Shown here: piece by piece, positions 44,932-63,072 of the stretch
How the letters are laid out: each line of letters begins with the position of its first letter
Position numbering within the stretch: position 1 is the stretch's first letter
Assembly (NCBI GenBank): GCA_021325195.1
Contig: JAJPHQ010000065.1
Location: 1-64,000 of the forward strand
Source of the DNA: Gammaproteobacteria bacterium
GTDB taxonomy: Bacteria > Pseudomonadota > Gammaproteobacteria > Xanthomonadales > Rhodanobacteraceae
Direction: 5' to 3'
DNA: 64,000 bases
The notes under the pieces: generated by a model
Databases searched by the model: none
Seen by the model: only the letters and a program-made list of their open reading frames with translations
Told to the model about the DNA's origin: nothing
Made by a program: the position numbers and the translations under genes

Positions 44932-45282
44932 TTGAGCCAGGCCCAACGTTATTACCTCACCATCGCCGACCTCGCCACCGCGCGCGGTCCCGACCCCGAC
45001 TTGGCGTTTCACGGCTCGTCGCCGCAGGCATTCGCCGAGGCCCTGCAACAGGCGCTGCGGCAGACCGTGCTGTTCCAGCGCTGGAAGGCGCGCCAGCCCG
45101 ATCCCGACGAGGTGGACAACTCGCTGGCGCCGGCCGATCCCGACGCCACCGTCACCGCCGAACAGGACGACCTGCACACCGACGTGCAGGTGGTCACCAG
45201 CCTGCCGCACGCGATCCTGCGGCACCGGCTGTTCATCCTGATCGGGCCGAATTGGCAGTTGCGCGACGTGCGCGCTGCCTAG
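44932..45282 (+). CDS. Conserved hypothetical protein
   Basis: 116 residues starting at a TTG (44932) with GGAG eight bases before it. MSQAQRYYLTIADLATARGP, PQAFAEALQQALRQTVLFQR and LHTDVQVVTSLPHAILRHRL are the notable segments; there are no membrane helices, cysteines or known motifs. I did not recognise the family. It is 70 bases upstream of the M3 peptidase gene in the same direction and may share its transcript. Confidence 0.65.
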   Translation: MSQAQRYYLTIADLATARGPDPDLAFHGSSPQAFAEALQQALRQTVLFQRWKARQPDPDEVDNSLAPADPDATVTAEQDDLHTDVQVVTSLPHAILRHRLFILIGPNWQLRDVRAA

Positions 45283-45352
45283 AACCGCCGCATTCGCAAA
45301 GCTGCCGCGTTTCCACATCCCCGTTTCCATCCGCCGTGCAAGGAACTCCGAC

Positions 45353-47605: not shown

Positions 47606-47652
47606 TCGCGCTGCGGGAGCCCGCGCGCCGGCGATGGCGGTGACTTCAGGCA

Positions 47653-47676
47653 AAAGGCCCGCTCCGGCGGGCCTTT
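47653..47676. terminator. Terminator between dcp and the transglutaminase-like gene
   Basis: AAAGGCCCGC (47653-47662) and GCGGGCCTTT (47667-47676) form a 10-bp stem with loop TCCG, with A/T runs on both sides. It can stop dcp transcripts; the minus-strand gene's TAA stop (47675-47677) lies at its edge, so it may work in both directions. Confidence 0.85.
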
Positions 47677-49213
47677 ACTTCGCGGGCGGCGCAAGGATCT
47701 TCCAGTCGAAGCGATAATCCCATTTGTTGTAGTACAGGTTGCCGCCGTCCCACTCGACTTCACCGCGTTGCGAATCGACGGTGTCGGAGCGGAAGAACCG
47801 CTTGGGCGGCACGAACGGCTGCGAGAAGTCGTCGTTGAAGGCGATCCGGAAATCGTCCAGCCCGCCCAGGTAGAACCATTTCAGCCCGGGATCGCCCGAG
47901 TCGAGCCGTCCGTAGGTCACATCCACCGGAATCCAGCCGTAGGGCGCGAGATAGATCTCGGCCCAGTCGTGGATGTTGTCGTAACCGTCATCGGTGAAGA
48001 TCCAGCCCGATTGCCAGCGCGCCGGGATGCCGTTCATGCGCATCAGCGTGATCAACAGCATGGTCTGCTCGCCGCAGTCGCCATGACCCGCGTGCAGCGT
48101 GTAGGCGCTCAGGTCCGGAATCGTCGAATACTCGCGCGCGCCGGCCCAGGGAATCTCGTCCACCGCGGCAAAGATTCTCCGCGCGATCCGGTAGGGATTG
48201 GCGGCATCCCCCACCACCTGGCGAGAAAACACCCGCAGCGGTTCGGTGAACACGATGTGCGGCGGACGCTCGGCCAGGTAGGGTGCGAGTTCCGGCGTGA
48301 CCTTCACCGGCACCACCTTGTCCGGATCGATCGGATGGTACTGCGCGTACAGCTTCACCTCGTAGGTCACCGCAAACACGGTCGGCTTGCCTGCCCGCGC
48401 GGCCTGCTCGAGATACACCGTGCGTTGCAGCGCCGATGCCGGCGCGATCCGGTGCACGGACGGCTGGCTGGCAACGAAGCGGATGTCTTCCTGTTGCCCG
48501 GGGATGGCGCGCGGGTAGGGAATCCAGGCGCGCACGGTCTTGCCGGCGGGCACGGCGCCGGGCTGCACCGTCAGGGTCTGCGTCACCCGCACGCGCTGCG
48601 GCAGCACGCTGGAACGGCCGTCCGCTTCCGCCTGCCGGATCACCTTGCGGTCGAAGTCGATGTAACGAGCATTGACCTGCGCGGGCAGACCGCTCGCGAC
48701 GAAGGACGACGCGCCCATGCGCCGCGCGCGCGCCTCCGCGCTCAGATGAAACAGGTTGGACGGCGCGCGGTTGAAATACAGCCGCTGCCCGTCGATGTCC
48801 ATGTGCTCGAACAGCCCGTGCGCGTCCCAGCGCGCGAAGTCGGCGTCGCTGAGTCTTGGAATCTGCCTGCGCAGTTCGGCCTCGACCTGATCGGCGGTGA
48901 GGCTGAAGTCCTTGCGCATCCGCTGCATCCGCTCGCGCTGGAACATCAACGCCGCGCGCGCGGTTCCGGAAAGGCCCGGCTGCCTCAGCGCGGCATCGAT
49001 GCGGGCCTCGGCTTCGCGGAACTGCCCGGCGGAAACCAGTTCCACGACCGCGCTGACGCTGCGGTCGCCGGTGTTCGCCGAAGGAATGCCGGAGGCCATG
49101 ACGGCCACGGACAGCGAGATCGCCGACAGCAGCGTCAACGCCGCAAGGCTTGCGCGGGCGCCATGCGATCGGATGATCCGCCGTCGGCTTCGAGCATCGA
49201 ACACGTTGGACAA
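47675..49213 (-). CDS. Secreted transglutaminase-like (papain-fold) protein
   Basis: 512 residues from a TTG at 49213 with AGGAG close upstream (a GTG at 49204 is an alternative). SLAALTLLSAISLSVAVMASG is a signal segment. Residues ~190-340 are a beta-rich N-terminal domain of the transglutaminase-like type (VRAWIPYPRAIPGQQEDIR). The catalytic triad is Cys in HAGHGDCGEQTMLLITLMR, His in NIHDWAEIYL and Asp in GWIPVDVTYG. Such proteins are usually hydrolases or crosslinkers of peptides in the periplasm; substrate unknown. It is convergent with dcp. Confidence 0.88.
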   Translation of the reverse strand: MSNVFDARSRRRIIRSHGARASLAALTLLSAISLSVAVMASGIPSANTGDRSVSAVVELVSAGQFREAEARIDAALRQPGLSGTARAALMFQRERMQRMRKDFSLTADQVEAELRRQIPRLSDADFARWDAHGLFEHMDIDGQRLYFNRAPSNLFHLSAEARARRMGASSFVASGLPAQVNARYIDFDRKVIRQAEADGRSSVLPQRVRVTQTLTVQPGAVPAGKTVRAWIPYPRAIPGQQEDIRFVASQPSVHRIAPASALQRTVYLEQAARAGKPTVFAVTYEVKLYAQYHPIDPDKVVPVKVTPELAPYLAERPPHIVFTEPLRVFSRQVVGDAANPYRIARRIFAAVDEIPWAGAREYSTIPDLSAYTLHAGHGDCGEQTMLLITLMRMNGIPARWQSGWIFTDDGYDNIHDWAEIYLAPYGWIPVDVTYGRLDSGDPGLKWFYLGGLDDFRIAFNDDFSQPFVPPKRFFRSDTVDSQRGEVEWDGGNLYYNKWDYRFDWKILAPPAK

Positions 49214-49270
49214 TTCTCCTCACCGTCTCGTCGCAATGACCCCGTACCCTTCATCCCCTCTAGCTGGTTT

Positions 49271-49325
49271 CCGCGGCAGGCCATCCATGGCCTGCGCTAG
49301 CGGGGTGTTTTTCAGCACCATGCTA
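49271..49325. repeat. Dispersed hairpin element, right-half copy
   Basis: CCGCGGCAGGCCATCCATGG then CCTGCGCTAGCGGGGTGTTT match the right half of the 58663 element with few changes; GCAGGCCATCCATGGCCTGC is a perfect palindrome here. The left half is absent. Confidence 0.75.
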
Positions 49326-49345
49326 GAGCGAGAGAAGGCTTGTTG

Positions 49346-49440
49346 CATTCCGGAAGTTCCGGGGAAGCTCCGGACCAAGTCCATCCAGAAAGGGAAACAG
49401 ATTCCGGATCTCACCCGCTTCGCGGGCTGGTCCGGAATGA
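49346..49440. repeat. ATTCCGG-type repeat block
   Basis: Starts CATTCCGG, ends CCGGAATGA, with GGAAGTTCCGGGGAAGCTCC and CCCGCTTCGCGGG hairpins inside. Third member of the family seen at 15722 and 37326. Confidence 0.7.
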
Positions 49441-49464
49441 CCAAGATGTTTTCGGGACACCACT

Positions 49465-51366
49465 CTAGTCGTTGGCCACCGGTTTCGGTGCAAGGATCTG
49501 CTCCAGATAATCGGCGCTGCCCTGCACGCGGACGAGGTGGGGAAACTTCAACCCGCCGTCGTAACGGATCGTGCGTGATCCGATCACGCCGTCGTCCTGC
49601 ACGCGGATCTCCAGCGGTTTCCTGTCACGCTGCGCCTGAGCGACAGCCTCGCGCAGTACGGAGGTGCTGTAGCCGCGGCCGTTGATGGAGACCAGCTTCA
49701 TGCCCGGCGCGAGGCCAGCCTTGAAGGCCGGCCCGTTCCACAACACGTCCAGGATCTTGCCGTCGCGGTCCAGGAACAGGCCCATCGAATACATCGCGTT
49801 GACGCCCTTGCCTTCCAGTTCGCCCTCGCCCACGTTCTCGAGTGCGTTCTGGTAGCGCGATGGCTTGTCCGTGTAGACGAGCCGCCAGCCGCTGGCTTCG
49901 ATGCCGGACAGGAGCGGCACCTGATCGTCCACACCGTTCAGCCAGCCTTGCAGAAAACCGGCCCAGCCGTACGGTTGCACCGCGTCGAGCGCGTTGACGA
50001 CGTCGTCGAAGGCATAGGTGTGCGTGACGAAGCTGCCATTGTCGGCGCCGAAAAACTTCCGCGCGAAATCGTCGATCGAACGTTGACCGTGGCTCAACTG
50101 CCGGATCTTCGCATCGACCGCCAGCCACAGGAGTTCGCCCTCGCGATAGAAGTCGGTCTGCCGGCGCCAGTTCGACCACGCTTCGGTCGAACCGTACAGC
50201 AACTGCGCGGCCACGGTGGTGTCGATCAGCGGCCGCCACGCGCGGCCGGTCCGGTGCGCCATCGCGGCCGCGCGGTACGCGATCACGTCGCGCCACGTGT
50301 CGGGCGACCACAGCCCGCTGCGCGCCGTCAGCACGTCGCCGAGGTAGGCCGTGAGTCCCTCGTACACCCACAGCATCCGGGTGTGTTCGGGGCGCTCGAA
50401 GTCGGGCTGCCACAGCCCCGCCGGGCGCATGAACTTCCCGTTCCACGAATGGGTGTATTCGTGCGGCAGCAGCGAGCCGTCGAGCATGAAATGGTCGGCG
50501 TCGGCGAACATCCTGGAGCCGCTGCGCGCGCGATCGTCGCTGGACTGGTGGTGCTCCAGCCCGCCGACCGAGGTGTGATCGCTCAACGTCAGCAAGAAGT
50601 GATAGTCGTCGTAATGATGCGAACGGAACAGCGCCTGCGCCTGCTCGACCAGCTGACGATAGCCGGCGACCTGCGCGTCGGAGATCGCGATGGCCGCGGC
50701 ATTGTCGCCCACCATGTCGAGGTAGCGGTGCACCGGTGAGCCGGGCGGCGTGATGTCGATCTGCCGGAAATACCTGCCTGCGATCACCGGCGAATCGACC
50801 AGCGTGTTGAACGGCACGGGCTTGAACGCGATCCGGCCGCCCTCACGCCTGTCCGTTCCGAGCGCGCTGGCGTATTGCCAGCCGGCGGGAATGACCAGCG
50901 CGGGCAGATACGTCTGCGCGCTGGCCGGATAGCCGGCCTGGTATAGCGCGACGTGATCCCACGTGAGGTCCAGCAAATCGGGCGTGATCCGCTCCGGGTC
51001 CGGGAACTGGAAACGGATGTCGATCCGGTCAACGCCCGCCGGCACCGCGAGGTGAAACGCGAACATGTCCTCTTCGTCGCGTTGCCATGCGAGCCGCTTG
51101 CCGTCGGCCGTGATTTGCAGACCCATCATGTCGCCGATCGGACCATCCGGCGAGTGGTCGCCGGGAATCCACTTCGGGTAGCGGAGCGTCAAGGCTCCCG
51201 GCCTGACCGGCATCGCCTCGTCCACGTACAGGATCTTCTGCGCCGGATCGGGCAGACGCACCGTCAACGACACCGGACCGGCCGGAACCTCCGCGGCCGT
51301 TTGCGCGGCACCGGACAGCGACGCGGCGAACACCAGCAAGCCTGCAAGCCACGACCGTCGTTTCAT
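49465..51366 (-). CDS. M61 family glycyl aminopeptidase with PDZ domain
   Basis: 633 residues from the ATG at 51366, preceded by GGAGGGG. A signal peptide (WLAGLLVFAASLSGAAQTAA) directs export. The N-terminal beta domain has LRYPKWIPGDHSPDGPIGD; the zinc site is LPHEYTHSWNGKFMRP, with the third ligand in WVYEGLTAYLGDVL. The C-terminal ~110 residues form a PDZ-like domain (GPAFKAGLAPGMKLVSINGR). M61 enzymes release N-terminal Gly/Ala from peptides. The gene is divergent from the TonB receptor with 569 bases between starts. Confidence 0.92.
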   Translation of the reverse strand: MKRRSWLAGLLVFAASLSGAAQTAAEVPAGPVSLTVRLPDPAQKILYVDEAMPVRPGALTLRYPKWIPGDHSPDGPIGDMMGLQITADGKRLAWQRDEEDMFAFHLAVPAGVDRIDIRFQFPDPERITPDLLDLTWDHVALYQAGYPASAQTYLPALVIPAGWQYASALGTDRREGGRIAFKPVPFNTLVDSPVIAGRYFRQIDITPPGSPVHRYLDMVGDNAAAIAISDAQVAGYRQLVEQAQALFRSHHYDDYHFLLTLSDHTSVGGLEHHQSSDDRARSGSRMFADADHFMLDGSLLPHEYTHSWNGKFMRPAGLWQPDFERPEHTRMLWVYEGLTAYLGDVLTARSGLWSPDTWRDVIAYRAAAMAHRTGRAWRPLIDTTVAAQLLYGSTEAWSNWRRQTDFYREGELLWLAVDAKIRQLSHGQRSIDDFARKFFGADNGSFVTHTYAFDDVVNALDAVQPYGWAGFLQGWLNGVDDQVPLLSGIEASGWRLVYTDKPSRYQNALENVGEGELEGKGVNAMYSMGLFLDRDGKILDVLWNGPAFKAGLAPGMKLVSINGRGYSTSVLREAVAQAQRDRKPLEIRVQDDGVIGSRTIRYDGGLKFPHLVRVQGSADYLEQILAPKPVAND

Positions 51367-51614
51367 GCGCCCCTCCGAAGCCGTCGGTGCGTGCAAGTTA
51401 TGCCGAATCAGGTTCGCGCGCCATGTGCCGAATCGCACATCGGCGCCGTTTCCGCAAATGCCGTGCCGGATCCGGCGCACCGCCGTCCGCTCCCGTGATG
51501 CATTCTCCGCACGCGTCCGGCCGCGCGCTGGGGACGGCGACATCATCGCACCTGCATCCGGAAAATCCACGCGCGGGATCGTTCAGATTGGCGCCATCCC
51601 CGGATCCCGGCGGC

Positions 51615-51689
51615 GTGTCCATAACCCCGGGCTATGCCGCGTAGCTGTTTTTTCATTGGCGGCCTTCGCCTGCCGGTATTTATGCTCGA
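51615..51689 (+). promoter_or_regulatory. 75-bp element shared with the dgcN upstream region
   Basis: Aligned without gaps to 59041-59115, 52 of 75 bases are identical, including TTTTCATTGG, CCTGCCG and TATGCTCGA. The last part looks like a promoter: TTGGCG and TATGCT (51681-51686) at the same spacing as in the other copy. It lies 246 bases before the TonB receptor ATG. The remainder of the 51367-51935 gap has an extra TTATGCC near 51396 and some hairpins, but no gene. Confidence 0.7.
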
Positions 51690-51935
51690 CAGCCGACTGC
51701 ATCCGGTCGGTGAAAAGTCCGGTCGATGCACATCGCTGCCACGCGCGAGGTCTGCCTGTGAACTGCCGGGCAAGAGAAACGGGGGTCCGGGTTTGCGGCA
51801 ACGCCTTATCGGCACCACGTAGCCGTTCGCTCGACGGACGGCTCGGACGCCTTCCGTCAATCCGATGAGGCCTCACGACGGACGACGTGTCGGGGTCACC
51901 GTACCGGCTGTTTGAATCGAGAGGGGTGCACATCC

Positions 51936-54900
51936 ATGAAGGGCAAATCTCCACGCACGTCCAATCGCAACGACGTCTTCCGGCGCAAGGCGCTGGCTGT
52001 CGCCATCGGTTCGTCGGTGGCTTTGGGATTCACCGGCGCGGCCTGGTCACAGGCAACCACCGGCACCATCTACGGCACGGTCCCGGCGGCTTCCGGCGAA
52101 ACCATCCAGATCACCGGCGGCGCGGGCTTCAACCGCACCATCACGGTGGGACCGTCCGGCAAATACTCGATTACCCTGCCGGTCGGCACCTACACCGTGT
52201 CGCTGCTGCAGAACGGCAAGGTCGTGCAGACCAGGACGAACGTCAGCCCGGTCGCGGCGGGCGCGGTGGCGGTGGATTTCTCGAGCTCGGCAGGCACCCA
52301 GAACATCACGACCCTCAACGCGATCAACGTCACGGCCAGGGCCATTCCCGCGATCGACGTGACCACCACCAACCAGGTCACCACGATCACGGCGAGGGAG
52401 TTGCAGCAACTGCCGCTGCAGCGCGATGCCGCCGACATCGCCATGCTGGCGCCGGGTGTCAACATGGGTTCGCCGCAACTGGTGCCGGGTCCGGTGGGCA
52501 ATCCGATCAACGTGTTCGGTGGCGCCTCGACGGCCGAGAACGCGTACTACATCGACGGCATGAACGTTACCGACGCACTCTACGCGCAGGGCGGTTTCGA
52601 ATTGCCGTACGGCGCGATCGAGCAGCAACAGACCTACATCAGCGGTTATGGCGCCAAGTACGGCCGCTCGATCGGCGGCGTGATCAACCAGATCGGCAAG
52701 AGCGGCTCCAACGAGTGGCATTTCGGCGTACGCGCCCTGTGGCAACCGGCAGCTTGGCGAAGCGATCCCATCAACTACTACTTCGCCAATCCGCTGGAGA
52801 CGCAACCCGGCGAGCAGCCCGGAGATCTGCTTTCCTACAACAAGGACAACCGCACCCAGGAAACGATCTACGACGCCTATGTCAGCGGACCCATCATCAG
52901 GGACAAGCTGTTTTTCTTCCTGAGCGCCGAGCAGGACAACTCCCACACCAGCACCACCGGCATCAACAGCGGCACCGCGGAGAGGTTCTTCGTCACGCAA
53001 CACAGCCCGAAGATCTACGCCAAGCTGAACTGGAACATCAACGACAGCAACTTCCTGACCCTGACCGGCGTGCAGAATTCCCTCAAGAGATGGGGTTCCT
53101 ACGATACCTTCGATTACGACACCCTGCAGGTCGTCCCGGGTACCGCCGGGCTGAACCAGACCAGCAAGGACACCTTCCGGATATGGGCGCTCAACTACAC
53201 GTCCTACCTCACCGACAACCTGACCTTGAACGCGATGTTCGGCAAGATACGCGGCGAGTACTACACCCAGCAGCCCGCATACCCGGGGTTCGATCCGAGT
53301 TTGCCGAACATCCAGAGCGCCTCCCTGCAGAACCCGGCGTTCGTCCCGCCCGGAGGCATTTCCAACGCGCAAGTCAACTCGACGCAGGCGATACCCTCGC
53401 ACCGCGTCGACGTCATGAGCTATCGCGTGAGCCTGGATTACAAATGGCGCAACCACGATTTTCAAATCGGCATCGACAACATCAACTCCTGGGACCGGGA
53501 TGACGGTTTCGAAATGACGGGGCCCGGCTATGCATGGGTGTACGGAAGCAGCGCCCCGGGGGTGCCGCTTTTCGGCGTCAACCCCAACGTGCCGCCGTTT
53601 GTCGCGCCGTCGCCCGACTGTCACCCGGTGCCCAACTCGACCCCGGTCTGCTATTACGTGGCGAAACAGATCGACATGCAGTCCGCGTCGGTGAAAGTCT
53701 TCCAGCGCGCGCAGTACGTCGAGGACAACTGGCAGGTCACGCCCAACCTGCTGCTGAACCTGGGGTTGCGCAACGACCAGTTCACCAACTTCGACTCGTT
53801 CGGCGTGCCCTACATCAGGTTGACCAAGCCGCAATGGGCACCCCGCTTCGGCTTCAGCTGGGACGTGCACGGCGACTCCACGATGAAGGTGTTCGGCAAT
53901 GCAGGCCGCTATTACCTGGCGCTGCCGTTGACGACCGCAACGTCGATTGCCGCGCCGGTGATCGCCACCAATCTGTACGGGACCTACACCGGCATCGATC
54001 CCGCGACCGGCGCACCGATCGGTTTCACGCCGCTGCCGCAGAACCCCTCGACGGGCGTGTCGATCGACAACGAATACGGCCAGCCGAAGGATCCGAGGGT
54101 ATCCGCGGCCCAGAACATCAAGGCCGAGTTTTCGGACAACTTCGTGCTGGGCATGCAGCAGGAATTCCGGATGCTGGGCACGCAGTGGGTATTCGGGGCC
54201 ACCGCGACGTACCAGAAGATGAGCCGGATCATCGACGACTTCGACGACGAGCAGATCGAATGTGCGGCGGGACGGAGCCAGGGCTACGCCTGGATGACGC
54301 CGGATACCTGCAGCAACTGGGCCCAGAGCCTGGTCCTGATCAACCCGGGCGTCACCAACAACCTTTTGATGAAGGCACCCGACGGCAGCCTGGTCCCGGT
54401 GACGCTCACGGCTGCGGACCAGGATTTTCCGAAAGGGCCGACCCGCAAGTACTACTCGATGGACCTGTCGTTGCAGCACGTGTGGGACGGCAAGTGGTTC
54501 GTCAAATTCGACTACGTGTGGTCGCAGACCATCGGCAACACCGAAGGACCGGTGAGCACCTTTTCCCAGCAGAGCGGCTCGTACGAATCGATCACGACGG
54601 CGTGGGATTTCCCGGAGAGGATGCAGTATTCGTACGGCTTCCTGCCCAACGACCGCAGGAACCAGATCAAGATCTACGGCGCCTACGCGATCAACAAGGA
54701 CTGGACGGTCGGCGGCAATCTGTACATGGCGTCGGGCACGCCGCGCATGTGCCGGGGCGGCTACGGGCCGGACGAGCTGGCCCTGCACGGTTCGCATACG
54801 TACTACTGGTGCGGCGGCGTGCCGGTTCCGCCGGGATCGCTGGGCCGTCTGCCGTGGACCCGCCGCGTGGACCTCAGCGTGGATTACAGGCCGGCCTGGG

Positions 54901-55073
54901 CCCGGCACAAGCTGGACTTCAATCTGGCGGTGTTCAACGTGTTCAACAGCCAGACGGCGCTGTTCATCAACGACTTTTTCCACACCACCGCAAGTCCCAA
55001 CCCCGAATACGGGTCCATCGAGAATTCCACGCCGCCGCGCTCGGTGCGATTCTCCATGGCCTACGATTTTTGA
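51936..55073 (+). CDS. Oar-type TonB-dependent outer-membrane receptor
   Basis: 1045 residues from the ATG at 51936, with GAGAGGGG upstream. A signal peptide (KALAVAIGSSVALGFTGAAW ending SQA) is followed by a carboxypeptidase-regulatory-like domain (TIYGTVPAASGETIQITG, SITLPVGTYTVSLLQNGK), the plug (VTARAIPAIDVTTTNQVTT, DIAMLAPGVNMGS, YYIDGMNVTDALYAQGG) and a long beta-barrel ending in the aromatic FSMAYDF. This is the Oar layout used for protein or oligopeptide uptake. A clean intrinsic terminator follows. Expression is likely driven from the shared 75-bp element. Confidence 0.93.
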   Translation: MKGKSPRTSNRNDVFRRKALAVAIGSSVALGFTGAAWSQATTGTIYGTVPAASGETIQITGGAGFNRTITVGPSGKYSITLPVGTYTVSLLQNGKVVQTRTNVSPVAAGAVAVDFSSSAGTQNITTLNAINVTARAIPAIDVTTTNQVTTITARELQQLPLQRDAADIAMLAPGVNMGSPQLVPGPVGNPINVFGGASTAENAYYIDGMNVTDALYAQGGFELPYGAIEQQQTYISGYGAKYGRSIGGVINQIGKSGSNEWHFGVRALWQPAAWRSDPINYYFANPLETQPGEQPGDLLSYNKDNRTQETIYDAYVSGPIIRDKLFFFLSAEQDNSHTSTTGINSGTAERFFVTQHSPKIYAKLNWNINDSNFLTLTGVQNSLKRWGSYDTFDYDTLQVVPGTAGLNQTSKDTFRIWALNYTSYLTDNLTLNAMFGKIRGEYYTQQPAYPGFDPSLPNIQSASLQNPAFVPPGGISNAQVNSTQAIPSHRVDVMSYRVSLDYKWRNHDFQIGIDNINSWDRDDGFEMTGPGYAWVYGSSAPGVPLFGVNPNVPPFVAPSPDCHPVPNSTPVCYYVAKQIDMQSASVKVFQRAQYVEDNWQVTPNLLLNLGLRNDQFTNFDSFGVPYIRLTKPQWAPRFGFSWDVHGDSTMKVFGNAGRYYLALPLTTATSIAAPVIATNLYGTYTGIDPATGAPIGFTPLPQNPSTGVSIDNEYGQPKDPRVSAAQNIKAEFSDNFVLGMQQEFRMLGTQWVFGATATYQKMSRIIDDFDDEQIECAAGRSQGYAWMTPDTCSNWAQSLVLINPGVTNNLLMKAPDGSLVPVTLTAADQDFPKGPTRKYYSMDLSLQHVWDGKWFVKFDYVWSQTIGNTEGPVSTFSQQSGSYESITTAWDFPERMQYSYGFLPNDRRNQIKIYGAYAINKDWTVGGNLYMASGTPRMCRGGYGPDELALHGSHTYYWCGGVPVPPGSLGRLPWTRRVDLSVDYRPAWARHKLDFNLAVFNVFNSQTALFINDFFHTTASPNPEYGSIENSTPPRSVRFSMAYDF

Positions 55074-55095
55074 GCGATGGACACGATCTCTCCCT

Positions 55096-55122
55096 CGCCG
55101 GGCTTGCGCCCGGCGTTTTTTT
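55096..55122 (+). terminator. Intrinsic terminator of the TonB receptor gene
   Basis: CGCCGGGC (55096-55103) and GCCCGGCG (55108-55115) form an 8-bp stem with loop TTGC, followed directly by seven T residues. Confidence 0.95.
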
Positions 55123-55158
55123 GCAGTCCATCCGCGGGTGTCGTAACTTGCGCCCACG

Positions 55159-56796
55159 ATGCCGCAGCTCCGTGACGACATGACCGCGCACACACGATCC
55201 CTGCCGGCGCAGGATCCCTCCCGGCCACCACGCTCGCCCGTGACCGCACGCCTGCTGGAGAGGGCGCGCAGGGAATGGGCAAGGCAGGAGTACGAAGCCG
55301 CCGAGCGCTCGCTGACCAACGCGCTGGCCCTGGCGCCGGACGACCCGGAGGCCACGCGGATGCTGGGCGGGGTGGTGCTGCGCCGCGGCAAGTACGTCAG
55401 GGCCATCGAATGTTTCCGGAAGGTGCTGCCCGTGTGGCCCGACGACGACGACCTGCGCATCGGGCTTGGCATCGCCTTGTACGAACAGGGTGAAGTCCCG
55501 GAAGCCGTGATGCATCTGCGGCGCGCCTGCGAACTCGCGCCGGCTTCCGCGTCGGCCTGGTTCAACCTCGGCGAGGCGCTCGCACGGGATGCGCGCACGA
55601 CGGAAGCCGTGGCGGCGTTGCAGAAGGCGCTGGAACTCGATCCCGCGCATCTCTCGGCCCGGCTTTCGCTGGCCAGGGCACAGGCGAACCTGGGACGGAT
55701 CGACGCGGCGGTGGCGGGATTCCGCGAAGTGCTGCAGCGCGATCCCGGCAACGCCGAAGGCTGGTTCGGACTCTCCAACCTCAACACGGTCCGCTTCGAT
55801 GCCGCGGATCTCGCGTCCCTGCAGCGAGCCTTGGCGCGTCAAAACCTGCCCGACCGCGACCGGGAGCTGCTCGGTTTCACTTTTGCGAAGGCGCTGGAAA
55901 ACCAGGGGGACTACGCACAAGCCTTCGAGGTGTTCCGGGCCGCCAATGCATCGCGCCGCCGCCGGGTGAAGTGGGATGCGGCGGGGCACCGCGAACGCAT
56001 CGTGGCGACCCGGCGTGCGTTCGCCGAAGGGAAGCCGGAGCCACTGGACCCCGGGTTCGGCCATGAGGCCATCCTGATCATCAGCGTCCCCCGCTCCGGA
56101 TCGACGCTGGTCGAACACATCCTGGCCTCGCATCCGCAGGTCGAGGGCGCCAACGAGATCCGGGACCTGATGCAGGTGATCGACGGGGAGAGCGCGCGAC
56201 GCGGCATCGAGTTCCTGTCGTGGGTGCCGAGCGCGACCGCGCAGGACTGGCAACGACTGGGCCGCGAATACCTCGCGCGCACCGCGCGCTGGCGCGAACG
56301 CAAGCCGCGTTTCACCGACAAGAATCTGGTGAGCTGGTATCTGGTGGGCGCGGCGCTGGCGATGTTGCCGGCCGCGCGCGTGATCGTGGTCCGGCGCGAT
56401 CCGGTGGAAACCTGCCTGGCGTGTTTCCGCCAGTGCTTCAGCGAAAGAAGCGGGTTCTCCTGCGATCTCGACGACATGGCCGATTACCTGATCGACTTCC
56501 TGGACCTGACGCGTTTCTGGCTCGAGAAATATCCGGACCGCGTGTTCGATATGCCGTACGAGGCGCTGCTGGCCGAACCGGAAGCGATGATCCGCCGGCT
56601 GCTGGATTTCTGCGATCTGCCGTTCGACCCGGCCTGCCTCGAGTTCCACAAGACGCCGCGCACGGTGCAGAGCCTGCCCAGCGCCGCGCAGGTGCGGCAA
56701 CCGCTGCGCCGCGACACCGCGCGCAGCGCCCACTACGGCGACAAGCTGGACCACCTGCGCCAACGCCTGCGCGAAAGCGGCGTGCTGGCGGGATGA
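55159..56796 (+). CDS. TPR-repeat sulfotransferase
   Basis: 545 residues. Residues ~30-260 contain about six TPR units (EYEAAERSLTNALALAPDDP, KYVRAIECFRKVLPVWPDD, TTEAVAALQKALELDPAHL and others). Residues ~290-540 are a PAPS-dependent sulfotransferase: 5'-phosphosulfate loop LIISVPRSGSTLVEHILASH, the 3'-phosphate region VIVVRRDPVETCLACFRQCF and FDMPYEALLAEPEAMIRRLL. Such fusions resemble the tyrosyl-protein/peptide sulfotransferase-like family of Xanthomonadales; here the acceptor is unknown. It is 20 bases from the aminotransferase gene in the same direction. The start could also be the Met at 55180. Confidence 0.88.
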   Translation: MPQLRDDMTAHTRSLPAQDPSRPPRSPVTARLLERARREWARQEYEAAERSLTNALALAPDDPEATRMLGGVVLRRGKYVRAIECFRKVLPVWPDDDDLRIGLGIALYEQGEVPEAVMHLRRACELAPASASAWFNLGEALARDARTTEAVAALQKALELDPAHLSARLSLARAQANLGRIDAAVAGFREVLQRDPGNAEGWFGLSNLNTVRFDAADLASLQRALARQNLPDRDRELLGFTFAKALENQGDYAQAFEVFRAANASRRRRVKWDAAGHRERIVATRRAFAEGKPEPLDPGFGHEAILIISVPRSGSTLVEHILASHPQVEGANEIRDLMQVIDGESARRGIEFLSWVPSATAQDWQRLGREYLARTARWRERKPRFTDKNLVSWYLVGAALAMLPAARVIVVRRDPVETCLACFRQCFSERSGFSCDLDDMADYLIDFLDLTRFWLEKYPDRVFDMPYEALLAEPEAMIRRLLDFCDLPFDPACLEFHKTPRTVQSLPSAAQVRQPLRRDTARSAHYGDKLDHLRQRLRESGVLAG

Positions 56797-56817
56797 GTCT
56801 TCCAGCGAGGGGTTTCG

Positions 56818-57681
56818 ATGGCCGACGCACTCCCCGTTTGCCTGCTCGACGGCGCCTTCGTGCCTGCCGGCGAAGCCCGCGTTTCGCCGTTCGACCGCGG
56901 CTTCCTGTTCGGCGACGGCGTTTACGAGGTCGTGCCCTGTTACGGCGGCAAACCGTTCCGCTTGGAAGCGCACCTCGACCGTCTGCAGTCGGGCCTCGCT
57001 GCGCTCGCGATCCCCAACCCCCATTCGCGTGCACGCTGGACCGGGCTGGTGCAGCAACTCGTCGCCGTCAACGGCGGCGGCGACCTGGGCCTGTATCTCG
57101 AGGTCACGCGCGGCGCCGGTTCGGGCCGCGACTTCCTGCCCCGCGCCGGCATGCAACCCACGGTCTTCGGTTTCTGCTGGCGGCTCGCGGCGAGCGGGTC
57201 GGGGCAGCCCGAGCGCGGCCTCGCGTGCGTGACGCTGGACGACATCCGCTGGCTGCGCTGCGACATCAAGTCCATCGCCCTGCTGGGATCGGTGCTGCTG
57301 CGGATGGAGGCGGGGCGCCGCGGTGCGGACGAGGCGATCCTGCTGCGTGACGGACGTCTCGCCGAAGGCAGTTCCAGCAGCGTGTTCGTGGCCCGGCGCG
57401 GACGCGTGGCGACGCCGCCGGCCAACCACGAGCGGCTTCCCGGCATCACCCGCCAGGTCGTCGGCGACGTGCTCGCCACGCTCGGCCTGCCGCTGGACGT
57501 GCGCGACGTGCATCGCGAAGAATTGCACGCGGCGGACGAAATCTGGATCGCGAGTTCGACCCGCGAAGCGTTGCCGGTGACACGGCTCGACGGCCGCGCC
57601 GTCGGCACCGGCAGGCCCGGTCCGCTCTGGCGCCGGGTGTTCGACGCCTTCCAGGCGCTCAAGCGGCGCGAAACGGCGTGA
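56818..57681 (+). CDS. dat: D-amino-acid transaminase (class IV aminotransferase)
   Basis: 287 residues. The class IV PLP fold is shown by LLDGAFVPAGEARVSPFDRG, FLFGDGVYEVVPCYGGKPFR, RLEAHLDRLQSGLAAL and EGSSSSVFVARRGRV. The PLP lysine lies in RWLRCDIKSIALLGSVLLR, the form typical of D-alanine/D-amino-acid transaminases rather than branched-chain enzymes. It exchanges amino groups between D-amino acids and 2-oxoglutarate, yielding D-glutamate. It lies next to the dgcN/dgcA system, which consumes D-glutamate, and is convergent with the LysR gene. Confidence 0.88.
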   Translation: MADALPVCLLDGAFVPAGEARVSPFDRGFLFGDGVYEVVPCYGGKPFRLEAHLDRLQSGLAALAIPNPHSRARWTGLVQQLVAVNGGGDLGLYLEVTRGAGSGRDFLPRAGMQPTVFGFCWRLAASGSGQPERGLACVTLDDIRWLRCDIKSIALLGSVLLRMEAGRRGADEAILLRDGRLAEGSSSSVFVARRGRVATPPANHERLPGITRQVVGDVLATLGLPLDVRDVHREELHAADEIWIASSTREALPVTRLDGRAVGTGRPGPLWRRVFDAFQALKRRETA

Positions 57682-57717
57682 CCGGCGCGGGGGTCTGCGG
57701 CGGGTCCGGCGAGGTGC

Positions 57718-58620
57718 TCAGTCTTGCGCCAGCATCTGCTGCGCGAGCTGGCGCACCAGATCGAGAAAACGCTTCTGCACGGGGTTCAACGGGCTGTCAG
57801 AGCGGTACATCGCGTACAGCACGACGTCCAGATGCAGTTCCAGCGGGCGCATCTGCACGCGCTCGGCGCCACCGGCACGGGCGGTGAAGGGATCGACCAG
57901 CGCCAGACCGTCGCCCTGCGCGACCAGCGCATACGCCAGTTGATACGTCTGCACCCACACCGAGATCACGGGTGCCGGATCGAGCTGCGACAGATGGCTT
58001 TGCAGCATGCTGCCCAGCGCGTCGCGCACCGTGATGCCGATCATCCGCTGGCCGGCCAGCGCGCCGACCCGCAACGGTTGCGACAGTTCCCTGTCCGGCC
58101 ACCAGCCGGGCGGCGCGATCACCATCACCTGGCCACGGCACAGCGGCAGCTTGCGCAGATTGTGCTCGCGGGTGTCCTGCAGCGTGAGGCCGATGTCGGT
58201 TTCGCGCAGCGCCAGCGACTTGCACATCACCGCCGAATGCTGGGTGGAGAGTTCGGCGACGGTGTTCGGAAATGCCTTGCGCAGCAGCACGGTCGCATCG
58301 GGCACCAGCGCCAGAGCCAGCGCCGGCGTGCACGTCACCCGCAGCGGACAGCTTTCCGGGCGGCTGATGTTCATGGTGAGGCGCTGCAGGTCCTGCAGTT
58401 CCTGCATGATCCTCTCGATGTCGCGACGCAGCAGCAGCGCCTGCTGCGTCGGTTGCAGGCGTCCGCGCACGCGGCTGAACAACGGAAAGCCGAGCTGGTC
58501 CTCGGCGTGCTGCAACGCCTTGCTGGCGGCCGGCTGCGAAATGTTGAGCAGCTTGGCGGCGCCGGTCAGGCTGCCGGTGGTCAGCACGGCATGGAACAGT
58601 TCGATGTAGCGCAGGTGCAT
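57718..58620 (-). CDS. LysR-family regulator (DgcR-like)
   Basis: 300 residues from the ATG at 58620. The N-terminal winged helix is MHLRYIELFHAVLTTGSLTG, AAKLLNISQPAASKALQHAE and DQLGFPLFSRVRGRLQPT; the C-terminal two-lobe binding domain follows. It is divergent from dgcN over 535 bases, the usual place for a LysR regulator of its neighbour. A LysR protein (DgcR) controls dgcN genes responding to D-glutamate in marine gammaproteobacteria, so the same role is likely. The intergenic region also contains a dispersed hairpin element. Confidence 0.85.
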   Translation of the reverse strand: MHLRYIELFHAVLTTGSLTGAAKLLNISQPAASKALQHAEDQLGFPLFSRVRGRLQPTQQALLLRRDIERIMQELQDLQRLTMNISRPESCPLRVTCTPALALALVPDATVLLRKAFPNTVAELSTQHSAVMCKSLALRETDIGLTLQDTREHNLRKLPLCRGQVMVIAPPGWWPDRELSQPLRVGALAGQRMIGITVRDALGSMLQSHLSQLDPAPVISVWVQTYQLAYALVAQGDGLALVDPFTARAGGAERVQMRPLELHLDVVLYAMYRSDSPLNPVQKRFLDLVRQLAQQMLAQD

Positions 58621-58662
58621 GTCGGTTCGCTCAAGAATTGTCTGATCGACCTGCCGGCTGGA

Positions 58663-58815
58663 GCAGGTTGTTGAGAAAGTGCAGTCCTGCACTTTCTCAA
58701 CGTCGCGAGTCCGGCACATGTCCGGACTCGCTCCCGACGGATCAGCGCTTGCGCGCTTGATCCGCGGCGGGCCATCCGTGGCCCGCGCTTAGCAGGGTGT
58801 TTCTCAACACCCTGC
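58663..58815. repeat. Complete 153-bp hairpin element with terminal inverted repeats
   Basis: The ends GCAGGTTGTTGAGAAA (58663-58678) and TTTCTCAACACCCTGC (58800-58815) are inverted repeats, 15 of 16 matching. Inside are four hairpins: GTTGAGAAAGTGCAG/CTGCACTTTCTCAAC (58670-58701, 15-bp stem), GCGAGTCCGG/CCGGACTCGC (58705-58731), GCGGGCCA/TGGCCCGC, and GCAGGGTGTT/AACACCCTGC (58792-58815). No target duplication was evident. Other copies lie at 33215, 35507 and 49271. Confidence 0.88.
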
Positions 58816-59040
58816 CAGCTGCATGTCTGCAAGCCCGCTCTTCCGGGACCCCATCAGGCCCTTGCCGCGCGAGGGCCTGATCACCCCATTGACCCGAGGG
58901 GTTTTAAGGGCGGGAGCCTCGCGAGAGCGCGACACCGGAAGTCCCTCATGCCGCAGCGGCGGCGTCCGAGTGCAGCACAGGTCGCCGCCGCGGGCAACCG
59001 TCGCCGCCTCCCGAGACAACCGCGCAGACACGGAACCGCT

Positions 59041-59115
59041 GCGTCCACAACTTCCAGTTATGCCACATGTCCGTCTTTTCATTGGTGACCCGGACCTGCC
59101 GCTGGGTATGCTCGA
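59041..59115 (+). promoter_or_regulatory. 75-bp element shared with the TonB receptor upstream region
   Basis: Second copy of the 51615-51689 element (52/75 identical, no gaps). TTGGTG and TATGCT (59107-59112) could be the promoter hexamers although the 19-base spacing is long; the predicted start is about 37 bases before the dgcN ATG. The other bases between the LysR and dgcN genes are the dispersed element and GC-rich sequence without a gene. Confidence 0.7.
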
Positions 59116-59155
59116 TCGGGTGTCCTGGTCCTGAATGGAGTCCGGCGGAGCAAAC

Positions 59156-60199
59156 ATGTCGAACCGCGGGGAAGCAGTCGCCCCCCAGCACTGGGGTCCG
59201 CCTTATCTTCTGTACCTGGGCAATCCGGCCGATGAGCTGGCCATCAAGACGGCCCGCGGCGTGGCGCATTGGCGGCCCGAATGGTGCGTGGGCCAGTACC
59301 GGAGCCCCGCCTGCAAGCTGTCGCTGGGACTGCCCGACCTGGGCATGGCCGAGGCCAGGGCCGCGGGCGCCAAGACCATGCTGGTCGGCACCGCGAATGC
59401 CGGCGGCGTGATGGCGCCAGAAACCGTCGCCGACGTGCTCGCCGCGCTCGATGCCGGCCTCAACGTCGCGGCCGGCCTGCATCAGAAGCTGCGCGACAAC
59501 GCCGACATCCTCGCCGCCGCCCGGCGCAACGGCCGGGTGCTGTTCGACGCCCGCGAAGCGACCCGCAGCATCCCGGTGGGCACCGGCCGCAAACGCCCCG
59601 GCCTGCGGCTGCTGACGGTGGGCACCGATTGTTCGGTCGGCAAGATGTACACCGCGCTGGCGATCGAGCGCAGCCTGCGCAGACTCGGCTGCAAGGCCGA
59701 TTTCCGCGCCACCGGCCAGACCGGCATTTTCATCGCCGGCGACGGCATTCCCGTCGATGCGGTGATCGCCGATTTCATTTCGGGCGCGGCCGAACTGATC
59801 TCGCCGGCGCGTGACGACGGCGGCTGGGATCTGATCGAAGGCCAGGGTTCGCTGTTCCATCCCTCCTACGCCGGCGTGTCGCTGGGGCTGCTGCACGGCT
59901 CCCAGCCCGATGCCTTGGTGCTTTGTCACGAACCCACGCGGCGTCACATGCGCGGACTGCCGGAATACCCGCTGCCCGATCTCGAAGCCTGCCTGCAAGC
60001 CAACCTCGCCGCCGCCCGCTTGACCAATCCGGCGGTCAAGGCGGTCGGCGTCGCGCTCAACACCTCGAATCTCCCGCAACGGGAAGCGTGGGCAGCCTGC
60101 AGGGCGATCAGCGACCGGCTCGGGCTGCCTTGCCAGGACCCGGTCAGCATGGGCGTCGAGGCCATCGTGGACAACCTGCTCGCATGCTGCGCGGCCTGA
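59156..60199 (+). CDS. dgcN: DUF1611 N-acetyltransferase, D-glutamate type (DgcN)
   Basis: 347 residues from the ATG at 59156, preceded by GGCGGAG. The Rossmann-like start YLLYLGNPADELAIKTARGV and the P-loop LLTVGTDCSVGKMYTALAIE, plus IPVDAVIADFISGAAELISP and GQGSLFHPSYAGVSLGLLHG, identify DUF1611 (COG3367). DgcN uses acetyl-CoA to acetylate D-glutamate, and it is always paired with an epimerase, as it is here. The gene overlaps dgcA by 16 bases, so the two are translationally coupled. Confidence 0.88.
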   Translation: MSNRGEAVAPQHWGPPYLLYLGNPADELAIKTARGVAHWRPEWCVGQYRSPACKLSLGLPDLGMAEARAAGAKTMLVGTANAGGVMAPETVADVLAALDAGLNVAAGLHQKLRDNADILAAARRNGRVLFDAREATRSIPVGTGRKRPGLRLLTVGTDCSVGKMYTALAIERSLRRLGCKADFRATGQTGIFIAGDGIPVDAVIADFISGAAELISPARDDGGWDLIEGQGSLFHPSYAGVSLGLLHGSQPDALVLCHEPTRRHMRGLPEYPLPDLEACLQANLAAARLTNPAVKAVGVALNTSNLPQREAWAACRAISDRLGLPCQDPVSMGVEAIVDNLLACCAA

Positions 60200-61167
60200 A
60201 CATCCGGCAGCGCAGCCTGCCGCTCCGGGCGCCGTTCCGGATCTCGCGCGGCGTCAAGCACGCGGCGGACGTGGTGAGCGTCGAACTGGAGCAGGACGGC
60301 CGGATCGGACGCGGCGAGTCGGTGCCCTACGCGCGCTACGGCGAATCGGTGGCTTCCGTGATCGAGCAGATGGAAACGCTGCGCGATGCGTTGTGCGCAG
60401 GCATGGGCCGCGACGCCTTGCAGGTCCGCCTTCCGGCGGGCGCCGCGCGCAACGCGCTGGACGCGGCGCTGTGGGATCTGGAAGCGCGGCTGAGCCGGGT
60501 TCCCGTGCGGGCGCAACTGGCGCGGCCGCCGCTGGCACCGCTCCTCACCGCATTGACCGTGGTGATCGACACGCCGCAGCGGATGGGCGAAGCGGCGGCG
60601 CGCATCGCGGACGCGGGGCTGATCAAGATCAAGGTCGATGCCGCCGATCCCGCCGCGCGGATCGAAGCCGTGCGCAATGCGGCGCCCGCCGCCGCGCTGA
60701 TCGTCGATCCCAACGAAAGCTGGACGATCGACATCCTGCGCGACGTCCGGCCCGTACTGGAACGCACGCGCGTCGCCCTGCTCGAACAGCCGCTGCCCGC
60801 CGGCGCCGACGAGGCCCTGCTGGAGTTTTCCTGCCGGATTCCCGTCTGCGCCGACGAAGCCTGTCACGCGACCCCGGATCTGGCGAAGCTGCGCGGCCGT
60901 TACCAGGCGGTCAACATCAAGCTGGACAAGACCGGCGGCCTGACCGAAGCATGGCGCCTGTTGCACGCCGCGCGTGCCGAGGGCTTCGGGATCATGGTCG
61001 GCTGCATGGTGTGTTCCTCGCTGGGCATTGCGCCCGCGCTGGAACTGGCGCGCGAGGCGGACTTCGTCGATCTGGACGGCCCGCTGTGGCTGGCGAACGA
61101 TCTTCCCGGCGGCGTCAGCCTGCAGGGCGGACGGCTGTTGCCGCCGGCACCGGGATTCTGGGGATGA
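60184..61167 (+). CDS. dgcA: Enolase-superfamily epimerase, N-acetyl-D-glutamate racemase type (DgcA)
   Basis: 327 residues from the ATG at 60184. Muconate-lactonizing subgroup of the enolase superfamily: first catalytic Lys in LIKIKVDAADP, metal ligands in IVDPNESWT, LLEQPLPAG and CADEAC, second catalytic Lys in VNIKLDKTGGL. Members are annotated as dipeptide (L-Ala-D/L-Glu) epimerases; the fused position with dgcN points to DgcA, which turns N-acetyl-D-glutamate into N-acetyl-L-glutamate. A dipeptide-epimerase role, which would also fit wall-peptide salvage, cannot be excluded. Confidence 0.85.
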   Translation: MLRGLNIRQRSLPLRAPFRISRGVKHAADVVSVELEQDGRIGRGESVPYARYGESVASVIEQMETLRDALCAGMGRDALQVRLPAGAARNALDAALWDLEARLSRVPVRAQLARPPLAPLLTALTVVIDTPQRMGEAAARIADAGLIKIKVDAADPAARIEAVRNAAPAAALIVDPNESWTIDILRDVRPVLERTRVALLEQPLPAGADEALLEFSCRIPVCADEACHATPDLAKLRGRYQAVNIKLDKTGGLTEAWRLLHAARAEGFGIMVGCMVCSSLGIAPALELAREADFVDLDGPLWLANDLPGGVSLQGGRLLPPAPGFWG

Positions 61168-61231
61168 ACCGGCACGCGCGGCCATGGCTCGATCGCATTG
61201 GTCGGAGATTCCTTCGGGAAGGAGAAGCTTG

Positions 61232-63058
61232 ATGCCCGGACGCCACACGCCTCGGCTCGATGAAGCCTCCGCGCCCAAGCCGCCGGCGCGCCGCGGACCG
61301 CGGGGATGGCGCCGACCCCTGCTGATCGCGGCCATCGCCGCTTTCGGCACGCCGGCCGGCGCAAGAAACCTCGAAGCGCCGCTGCCCACCGCGATCGCCC
61401 ATGCACCGGCCGCCACCCGTGCGATGCTGGAAAAGTCGCGGCCGGTCACCGCGCAACATGCGATGGTGGTCAGCGCGCAGCATCTGGCGACACTGGCGGG
61501 TGTGCAGATCCTCAAGCAAGGCGGCAACGCGATCGACGCCGCGGTGGCGGTGGGTTATGCCGAGGCCGTGGTGCACCCCTGCTGCGGCAACCTCGGCGGC
61601 GGCGGCTTCATGACCATCCACTTGAAGGACGGCCGGAACCTGTTCCTGAACTTCCGCGAGAAGGCGCCGCTGAAGGCGACCCCCGGCATGTTCCAGGACG
61701 CGCACGGCGACGTGGTGCCGGGCCGCAGCACCGACTCGTACCTCGGCGTGGGCGTGCCGGGCACGGTGATGGGCCTCGATGCCGCGCTCGCGAAGTACGG
61801 CACGATGTCGCTGAAGCAAGTGATGGCGCCGGCCATCAAGCTGGCGCGCGACGGTTATGTGCTGGAACAGGGCGACGTCGATATCCTCGACGACAGCAGC
61901 GGGGATTTCGCCCGGCATCCGAATGTCGCCGCGATTTTCCTCGATCACGGCAAACCCTTCGTCGCCGGCCAGCGGCTGGTGCAGAAGGATCTGGCGCACA
62001 CGCTGGAGCTGATCGCCGACGGCGGCGCAGACGCCTTCTACAAGGGTCCGATCGCGCGCGCCGTGGTCGCGGCCAGCGAAGCCCGCGGCGGCATCCTGTC
62101 GATGCAGGATTTCGCCGGTTACACCGTGCAGTGGGAAAAGCCGATCGAGTGCCGTTACCACGGCTACACCATCATCTCGGCGCCGCCGCCCAGTTCCGGC
62201 GGCACCACGCTGTGCGAGATCCTGCAGATCATCCAGCCTTATCCGTTCGCAAGGTGGGGCTACGGTTCGGTGCAGACCGTGCGCCATCTCGCCGAGGCCG
62301 AACGCCGCGCCTTCGCCGACCGCAACACCTATCTCGGCGACCCCGCATTCGTGCACAACCCGATCGCACGCCTGCTGTCGTCCGAACACGCGGCCAGGCT
62401 GCGCGCCACGATCCTGCCCGACAGGGCCACGCCTTCGTCCGAGATCCAGGGCAGCCTCGGCGCGGCCGAAGGCAACCACACCACGCATTACTCGGTGATC
62501 GACCGGTACGGCAATGCGGTGTCAGTGACCTACACCCTCAATTTCCTGTTCGGGATCCGGCAGATCGCCGGCGACACCGGCTTCTTCCTCAACGACGAGA
62601 TGGACGACTTCACGTCCAAGCCCGGCGTGGCGAACGCGGCCGGTCTGGTGCAGGGCACGGCCAACGAGGTGCAGCCGGGCAAGCGTCCCTTGAGTTCGAT
62701 GACGCCGACCATCGTGATGAAGGGCGGCAAGCCGTATCTGCTGACCGGCAGTCCCGGCGACGCGACCATCATCTCGACCACGCTGCAAAGCATCCTCAAC
62801 GTGGTGGATTTCGGAATGAACGTACAGCAGGCGGTGAACGCGCCGCGCATGCACCAGCAATGGTATCCGCAGGCGGTGTGGATCGAGCCCGGACTGCTCA
62901 CGCCGGTGTCGCAACGGATGCTGCAGGCGATGGGCTACACGTTCAAGCCGGTCCGCGCGATGGGCGCCGACGAAGCCATCCTGATCGATCCCGCGACCGG
63001 CATCCGCGAAGGCGCCAACGACCGCCGGCGGCCGGCGGGCCTGGCGGCCGGTTACTGA
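61232..63058 (+). CDS. ggt: Gamma-glutamyltransferase
   Basis: 608 residues from the ATG at 61232, with AAGGAG upstream. A hydrophobic stretch WRRPLLIAAIAAFGTPAGAR suggests export. VTAQHAMVVSAQHLATLAG, GGNAIDAAVAVGYAEAVVHP and CCGNLGGGGFMTIHL belong to the large subunit; the self-cleavage site and nucleophile Thr (about residue 417) lie in GNHTTHYSVIDRYGNAVSVT; MTPTIVMKGGKPYLLTGSPG follows. It moves or hydrolyses gamma-glutamyl groups, including from peptides with D-Glu-like linkages. It follows dgcA by 64 bases. Confidence 0.94.
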   Translation: MPGRHTPRLDEASAPKPPARRGPRGWRRPLLIAAIAAFGTPAGARNLEAPLPTAIAHAPAATRAMLEKSRPVTAQHAMVVSAQHLATLAGVQILKQGGNAIDAAVAVGYAEAVVHPCCGNLGGGGFMTIHLKDGRNLFLNFREKAPLKATPGMFQDAHGDVVPGRSTDSYLGVGVPGTVMGLDAALAKYGTMSLKQVMAPAIKLARDGYVLEQGDVDILDDSSGDFARHPNVAAIFLDHGKPFVAGQRLVQKDLAHTLELIADGGADAFYKGPIARAVVAASEARGGILSMQDFAGYTVQWEKPIECRYHGYTIISAPPPSSGGTTLCEILQIIQPYPFARWGYGSVQTVRHLAEAERRAFADRNTYLGDPAFVHNPIARLLSSEHAARLRATILPDRATPSSEIQGSLGAAEGNHTTHYSVIDRYGNAVSVTYTLNFLFGIRQIAGDTGFFLNDEMDDFTSKPGVANAAGLVQGTANEVQPGKRPLSSMTPTIVMKGGKPYLLTGSPGDATIISTTLQSILNVVDFGMNVQQAVNAPRMHQQWYPQAVWIEPGLLTPVSQRMLQAMGYTFKPVRAMGADEAILIDPATGIREGANDRRRPAGLAAGY

Positions 63059-63072
63059 TCCGGCACCGCGTG

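Follow-up and report, generated by a model that had tools for sequence, protein, structure and literature searches.

In a member of the Rhodanobacteraceae (Gammaproteobacteria; Xanthomonadales), a gene for an outer-membrane receptor and a set of genes for D-glutamate (D-Glu) breakdown carry a similar sequence in front of them, and the question considered here is why. The window, the whole stretch of DNA analysed, comprises 64,000 nucleotides (positions 1 to 64,000 of contig JAJPHQ010000065.1, assembly GCA_021325195.1), and holds two versions of a 75-bp element on the plus strand, copy 1 at 51615-51689 upstream of an Oar-type TonB-dependent receptor gene and copy 2 at 59041-59115 upstream of dgcN. 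Judged from sequence, both represent a single conserved control site, whose likely binder is the LysR-type regulator encoded next to dgcN and which would link outer-membrane uptake receptors to D-Glu breakdown enzymes. We put at roughly 85% the probability that each copy would be a regulated LysR promoter, copy 1 serving the receptor and copy 2 dgcN and the genes behind it, that switches on receptor uptake and D-Glu breakdown together.

That the two stretches match had been claimed in an earlier note on this DNA, and the claim stands: they align without a gap at 52/75 identical bases, with the similarity ending at both element borders, compared to next-best ungapped 75-mer matches within the window of 37 (copy 1) and 38 (copy 2). 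Dinucleotide shuffles of both upstream regions (n = 300) gave a mean of 36.5 matches and a maximum of 43, which excludes a chance match. As also proposed there, neither copy lies within a likely gene; copy 1 is situated between a divergent frame (49465-51570) and the receptor ATG at 51936, copy 2 lies in the interval from the start of the LysR gene at 58620 to the dgcN ATG at 59156, and the mechanical open reading frames of at least 120 aa that cross both copies were not accepted as genes. The conserved blocks listed in that note fared less evenly, since CCTGCCG is common to both copies but, at about 0.1-0.4 bit per position, weakly conserved among the elements at large, and the list omitted the most telling part, the dyad CATAACCCCGGGCTATG at 51620-51636 and its counterpart CACAACTTCCAGTTATG at 59046-59062.

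This imperfect dyad, with the consensus CAYAAC-N5-GYTATG across both copies, is the predicted LysR recognition site. Copy 1 reads CATAAC-N5-GCTATG with a T-N11-A motif and is centred at 51628 by matrix and position arithmetic, and copy 2 reads CACAAC-N5-GTTATG, with no strict T-N11-A, and is centred at 59054. Both centres fall at -65 from the predicted transcription start, which is placed about 7 nt after the hexamer TATGCT, the predicted -10 box (51681-51686 with a start expected near 51693, and 59107-59112 with a start expected near 59119). About two helical turns from the right half-site lies the block TTTTCATTGG (51650-51659, about -43 to -34, and 59076-59085), a predicted LysR activation site. 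The core promoter is poor, consisting of TTGGYG, a 19-bp spacer and TATGCT, and a scan for the sigma-70 consensus found no promoter at either copy, as is expected if transcription is activator-dependent. Two terminator-like matches within 51550-51950, both inside copy 1, were taken for chance.

For a wider view of the element, a position weight matrix was built from 89 elements, coming from the window, from 40 fetched stretches that were mostly picked for carrying matches, and from 13 named gammaproteobacterial loci. Its consensus runs CCAyAAC-N5-GyTATGCC, then GTCTTTTCATTGGyGGC, then TATGCTCG, with no conservation beyond about 70 bp of element, and copies 1 and 2 score 80.4 and 82.6. When 1.15 million positions (both strands) were scanned, 75 hits exceeded 5 bits, the lowest at 27.6, a score gap that is partly by construction because the matrix was trained on many of them; two of the hits, in overlapping loci, are a single site, and the distinct sites thus number 74, spread over 19 genomes. 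The block TTTTCATTGG is intact at 69 of these, where the fixity of CATTGG in the logo is by construction, as all seeds had to hold it. The dyad is more variable: 56 sites pair at exactly five of six positions, six pair at all six and 12 at three or four, and a strict T-N11-A occurs at 32/74, with the A kept at every site. Using the exact dyad as sole anchor in the window and the 40 stretches, TTTTCATTGG was intact at the right distance in 53/62 cases, nearly so in three and not in six. The -10 box (matrix positions 62-67) is an independent feature because positions beyond 40 lay outside the seed pattern; it is conserved nonetheless in both copies, and TAnnnT stands in its place at 54/74 sites, or 68/74 when a one-base shift is allowed.

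The search through the genome and its relatives that the earlier note had pointed to gave a specific picture. Within the bacterium's own genome (2.92 Mb in 118 contigs, 99.85% complete), pattern searches at up to three mismatches recovered these two copies only, and the reversed-pattern control none. A pattern of the two conserved blocks, at up to two mismatches, matched in 20/119 relatives and 48/233 genomes of the family, with the reversed pattern absent from all 119 and all 233; the match in genome G095 lies below the matrix threshold, and one in G003 (contig C221) stands at a contig end and was unscored. Relatives carry up to eight copies per genome, often clustered, and the element recurs before receptors and D-Glu genes. 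Eleven loci (L004-L014) were anchored independently of the motif, and in all of them the LysR gene is present within the fetched locus at 70.5-78.3% identity; in nine the element precedes dgcN and its TTTTCATTGG block is intact, and the other two have it before a gamma-glutamyltransferase-like gene (product judged by eye) upstream of dgcN. Four of these loci (L006, L007, L010 and L012) come from genomes of the relatives' set (G023, G013, G008 and G037), and the two sets are not independent.

The presence of the element follows that of the LysR gene closely. Leaving aside the single two-mismatch matches in G095 and G108, 18 genomes among the 119 relatives, including the window's own, carry the element, and 17 of them carry the LysR gene (own 100% identity, 15 others 71-80%, and one contig-end fragment at 77%). 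Across the 233 family genomes, 45 have both, three the element only, one LysR only and 184 neither (Fisher p 2.6e-43); that is, the element is present in 45/46 LysR-bearing genomes. Within genera, whose sizes were counted by hand, the overlap of 45 compares with an expected 20.7 and never exceeded 32 in 200,000 draws, and the co-occurrence is therefore not merely a clade effect. The suggestion that the LysR protein next to dgcN is the regulator is thus favoured by the comparative evidence.

Beyond the family, the unchanged matrix was applied to further dgcN loci. A LysR relative counted wherever it lay within the fetched stretch, which spanned up to 21 kb, and a site before dgcN counted if it scored better than 98% of control stretches. 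Such a site was found in 29/34 loci with a LysR relative versus 1/27 without (Mann-Whitney p 3.9e-10, uncorrected for kinship). Eight intermediate loci (L015-L021 and L023) were left out of this count; a recognisable site precedes dgcN in all of L016-L021 (7.7 to 33.7 bits) and in neither L015 nor L023, and a LysR relative is present in L017, L018, L019, L021 and L023. One of these, from Pseudoxanthomonas dokdonensis (L019), has one site before dgcN and another before a TonB receptor whose gene is the next one downstream of a LysR gene (53% identity). A LysR relative (31-37% identity) often stands directly before dgcN in sphingomonads and other alphaproteobacteria, and the site there has diverged, becoming CTATAGC-N3-GCTATAG with GATATTGG in several Sphingopyxis. 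Other sites in those alphaproteobacterial loci precede genes for a penicillin-amidase-family protein, a sodium:dicarboxylate symporter and an amidohydrolase (one representative of each was profiled). The first of these arrangements, a diverged site ahead of a gene of penicillin-amidase type that lies about 4-10 kb from dgcN, was seen by eye in the sphingomonad loci L033, L036, L050, L052, L054 and L055, and likewise in L057, L064, L072, L073, L078 and L080, with L073 confirmed by Pfam. G108 belongs to a different family; its weak match of 27.6 bits, which was one of the matches scanned, is flanked by a LysR gene of 33% identity and by a lysA-like gene that scores below the cut-off of the lysA model.

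Grouped by the gene behind them, the 74 sites comprise 29 before TonB receptors (3/29 proteins profiled by search; 2/29 sites grouped through short reading frames of 74 and 243 aa), 14 before dgcN, nine before gamma-glutamyltransferase genes (1/9 profiled) and 22 other or unassigned. The dgcN genes behind the sites of L145, L158, L161 and L167 were missed by the simple gene caller and were assigned by hand from positions; three of these four are among the seven sites behind which the caller found no gene of at least 70 aa. Other targets, from profiles of single representatives, are two kinds of amidohydrolase, a sodium:solute symporter, glucokinase, a GH20 hexosaminidase, a GH18 protein, a GDSL hydrolase and a beta-lactamase-family protein. 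One target amidohydrolase has its best match to NCBIfam NF006560, below cut-off (218.6 vs 340), and looks like a D-aminoacylase; we take that model to be one once named D-glutamate deacylase. In two relatives (L154, L156 and L157 of G012, and L148 of G009) the element is also found ahead of GH18, GH20, GDSL-hydrolase and glucokinase genes, as though the regulon had been extended to the use of amino sugars.

Most of the sites fall into two operator versions, CATAAC/GCTATG at 11/15 Oar-receptor sites (the Oar type being assigned from a motif close to the N-terminus) and CACAAC/GTTATG at 12/14 dgcN sites. Each version lacks one dyad pair, a different pair in each, which may tune affinity or merely reflect descent.

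Taken as computed, the element is conserved, specific within the genome and co-occurrent with LysR, and we infer LysR binding, activation rather than repression, the extent of the operons, the inducer and the receptor cargo as follows. Each 75-bp copy would be one complete regulated promoter, at which the LysR protein (encoded at 57718-58620) would be anchored at the CAYAAC-N5-GYTATG dyad centred at -65. Together with its inducer (D-Glu, N-acetyl-D-Glu or a peptide that contains D-Glu would be expected), it would contact the TTTTCATTGG block around -38 and recruit RNA polymerase to the weak core promoter. One promoter would drive the genes for the TonB receptor, a sulfotransferase and an aminotransferase, the other dgcN-dgcA-ggt-lysA, and with both under one LysR, uptake and breakdown would be switched on together. 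The shared promoter or operator proposed in the earlier note is supported to this extent, as the element recurs before receptors and D-Glu genes with the layout of a promoter activated by a LysR-type transcriptional regulator (LTTR); that the receptor takes up peptides is a presumption.

Several observations weigh against this LysR-activated promoter. Copy 2, like more than half of the sites, lacks a strict T-N11-A, which slightly lowers our confidence in it and slightly raises that in a different binding protein; a 10-bp block as strongly fixed as TTTTCATTGG is, in our judgement, not what LTTR activation sites usually show, and a second protein could be the one that binds it; and the null sigma-70 scan at both copies is also what is expected of no promoter at all. 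The comparison of loci outside the family ignores phylogeny; a LysR relative is present with no clear site in L023 and in 5 of the 34 loci, and L016, L020 and L028 have the site with no LysR relative in the fetched locus. Within the family, the element is found with no LysR match in G006, a draft of about 220 contigs, and, at the strict cut-off, in G003, where a LysR fragment lies at a contig end, and in G269, which is 89% complete and has one two-mismatch element match; G224 has LysR with no element, its LysR match being partial (198/300 residues). Finally, the co-occurrence also fits a different regulator inherited with the same cluster.

One alternative is that the operator is shared, with a transcription factor other than LysR as the principal protein bound to it, or that a second factor acts on TTTTCATTGG, leaving LysR a bystander or partial controller. 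The constancy of TTTTCATTGG beside a more variable dyad (with CATTGG required in seeds), the scarcity of strict T-N11-A and the three family genomes with the element and no LysR match at the strict cut-off would all suit it. Set against them are the dyad centre at -65, the near-complete presence of the element in LysR-bearing family genomes, and the distant loci, such as those of several Sphingopyxis with GATATTGG, in which dyad and downstream box have both changed and a LysR relative is still near dgcN; we regard another main binder as unlikely, with perhaps a small share of the probability.

Rather less probable is that LysR mainly represses at these sites and that an inducer relieves the repression. 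Seven named relatives have 52-187 bp between the start of LysR and the dgcN element, a proximity that would accord with repression, but the placing of the site centre at -65 and a poor core promoter, with its 19-bp spacer, weak -35 and no consensus promoter found, argue for activation, as does the resemblance of the layout to that of PltR of Pseudomonas, an activator whose lys box is placed at -74 to -53 in the part of its description drawn on here (PMC3382589). That the two stretches belong to a repeat dispersed through the genome, or arose by duplication of a promoter fragment, and have no regulatory role, the scattered repeat that would have undone the earlier reading, has next to no chance and was rejected: two similar copies do lie 7.4 kb apart and a dispersed inverted repeat does sit nearby, but there are two copies per 2.92 Mb even at up to three mismatches, the flanks are unconserved, constraint falls at defined positions with spacers free, copies in relatives are often clustered, unrelated gene families lie downstream, and traces extend across a large phylogenetic distance.

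The LysR-activated promoter can also be set beside known systems. LTTR sites, in the portion of the BsrA paper used here (PMC8407307), combine a T-N11-A recognition site of imperfect dyad symmetry with an activation site, over 50-60 bp. The present element shares with such promoters the imperfect dyad upstream of a weak core promoter (with T-N11-A in copy 1) and the LysR gene beside its target, and differs, as far as that portion goes, in the missing strict T-N11-A of copy 2 and most other sites, in the strongly fixed 10-mer downstream and in the reuse of one promoter for receptors, transporters and enzymes alike. Examples of catabolic regulons with a TonB receptor among their members are those of HutC, HypR and NagR, which likewise place one regulator over outer-membrane uptake and catabolic genes; their regulators and substrates differ, and no D-Glu regulator is among them in the part of PMC5343134 relied upon. 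In titles and abstracts among the literature matches listed, none joins a LysR regulator, D-Glu genes and TonB receptors. The literature searches turned up no description of this regulon.

The DgcN-DgcA pathway of D-Glu use was reportedly described by Yu et al. in 2023, with DgcR, said to be an activator, as its regulator. The window resembles that pathway in having a regulator linked to dgcN and dgcA, which are encoded together and whose products both meet NCBIfam equivalog cut-offs; a link of the pathway to outer-membrane receptors, ggt or lysA was not found in literature searches. The gene dgcN (59156-60199, frame open from 59135; D-Glu N-acetyltransferase, NF041892, 522.3 bits, cut-off 480) is followed by dgcA (60184-61167, searched as 60196-61167; N-acetyl-D-Glu racemase, NF042940, 429.3 bits, cut-off 400), ggt (61232-63058 with a likely start at 61232, searched as 60974-63055; gamma-glutamyltransferase, TIGR00066, 544.6 bits, cut-off 357.85) and lysA (63055-64000, start approximate and cut by the window end; diaminopimelate decarboxylase, TIGR01048, 306.9 bits, cut-off 297.9), all on the plus strand.

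Environmental D-glutamate comes largely from bacterial cell walls, and we know of little study of how bacteria sense and import it. The order dgcN-dgcA-ggt-lysA points to use of D-Glu and meso-diaminopimelate (mDAP) from peptidoglycan peptides; breakdown of gamma-D-Glu-mDAP fits because genes for D-Glu use, gamma-glutamyl cleavage and meso-DAP decarboxylation stand side by side. Poly-gamma-glutamate is an alternative source of D-Glu, and lysA could simply be a biosynthetic gene. A broader proposal, tentative and in our estimate rather doubtful, is that one LysR lineage runs peptidoglycan-peptide scavenging from Rhodanobacter-like gammaproteobacteria to sphingomonads, in which TonB receptors would import D-Glu-containing muropeptides, gamma-glutamyltransferase, D-aminoacylase-like enzymes, DgcN-DgcA and LysA would dismantle gamma-D-Glu-mDAP, and the two operator versions with their different dyad defects would give uptake and breakdown differing sensitivities. 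More practically, genomes can be searched for the element; where it precedes TonB receptors or transporters whose cargo is unknown, it suggests D-Glu-containing peptides as their class of substrate, and it points to the LysR protein as candidate regulator.

The LysR-type regulator predicted to bind the element is encoded on the minus strand at 57718-58620, adjoining dgcN, with PF00126 (HTH_1, 64.6 bits) and PF03466 (LysR_substrate, 89.6 bits) each exceeding the cut-off; among proteins of solved structure, AdmX and BenM are its relatives in sequence at E<=1e-10. On the plus strand, the receptor (51936-55073; Pfam OMP_b-brl_4, TonB_dep_Rec_b-barrel and Plug) is followed by a TPR-repeat sulfotransferase (55159-56796; Pfam Sulfotransfer_3 and TPR), probably in the receptor operon given the gene order, and by a class IV aminotransferase (56818-57681), which falls short of the D-amino-acid transaminase model TIGR01121 (229.7 bits against a cut-off of 277.45). 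Receptor paralogues sought in the own genome as a negative control gave none at E<=1e-20. The receptor leader would be about 240 nt long (51693-51935), and at other receptors the distance from element to gene is 9 to 270 nt, values that are lower bounds because genes were called from their first possible start codon.

To the left of the receptor (45353-51570) a peptidyl-dipeptidase Dcp is encoded (985.8 bits, cut-off 944), and the minus-strand genes at 47675-49213 and 49468-51570 have no NCBIfam match at E<=1e-10. No Rfam family reached its gathering threshold across 45000-64000. Between lysR and dgcN, at 58669-58702 (within 58663-58815), lies the dispersed inverted repeat TGTTGAGAAAGTGCAG..CTGCACTTTCTCAAC, which occurs at six distinct places in the own genome at up to three mismatches (10 rows, both strands). 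The gap from lysR to the operator is 425 bp in the window versus the 52-187 bp of the seven named relatives, and the inverted repeat may have widened it.

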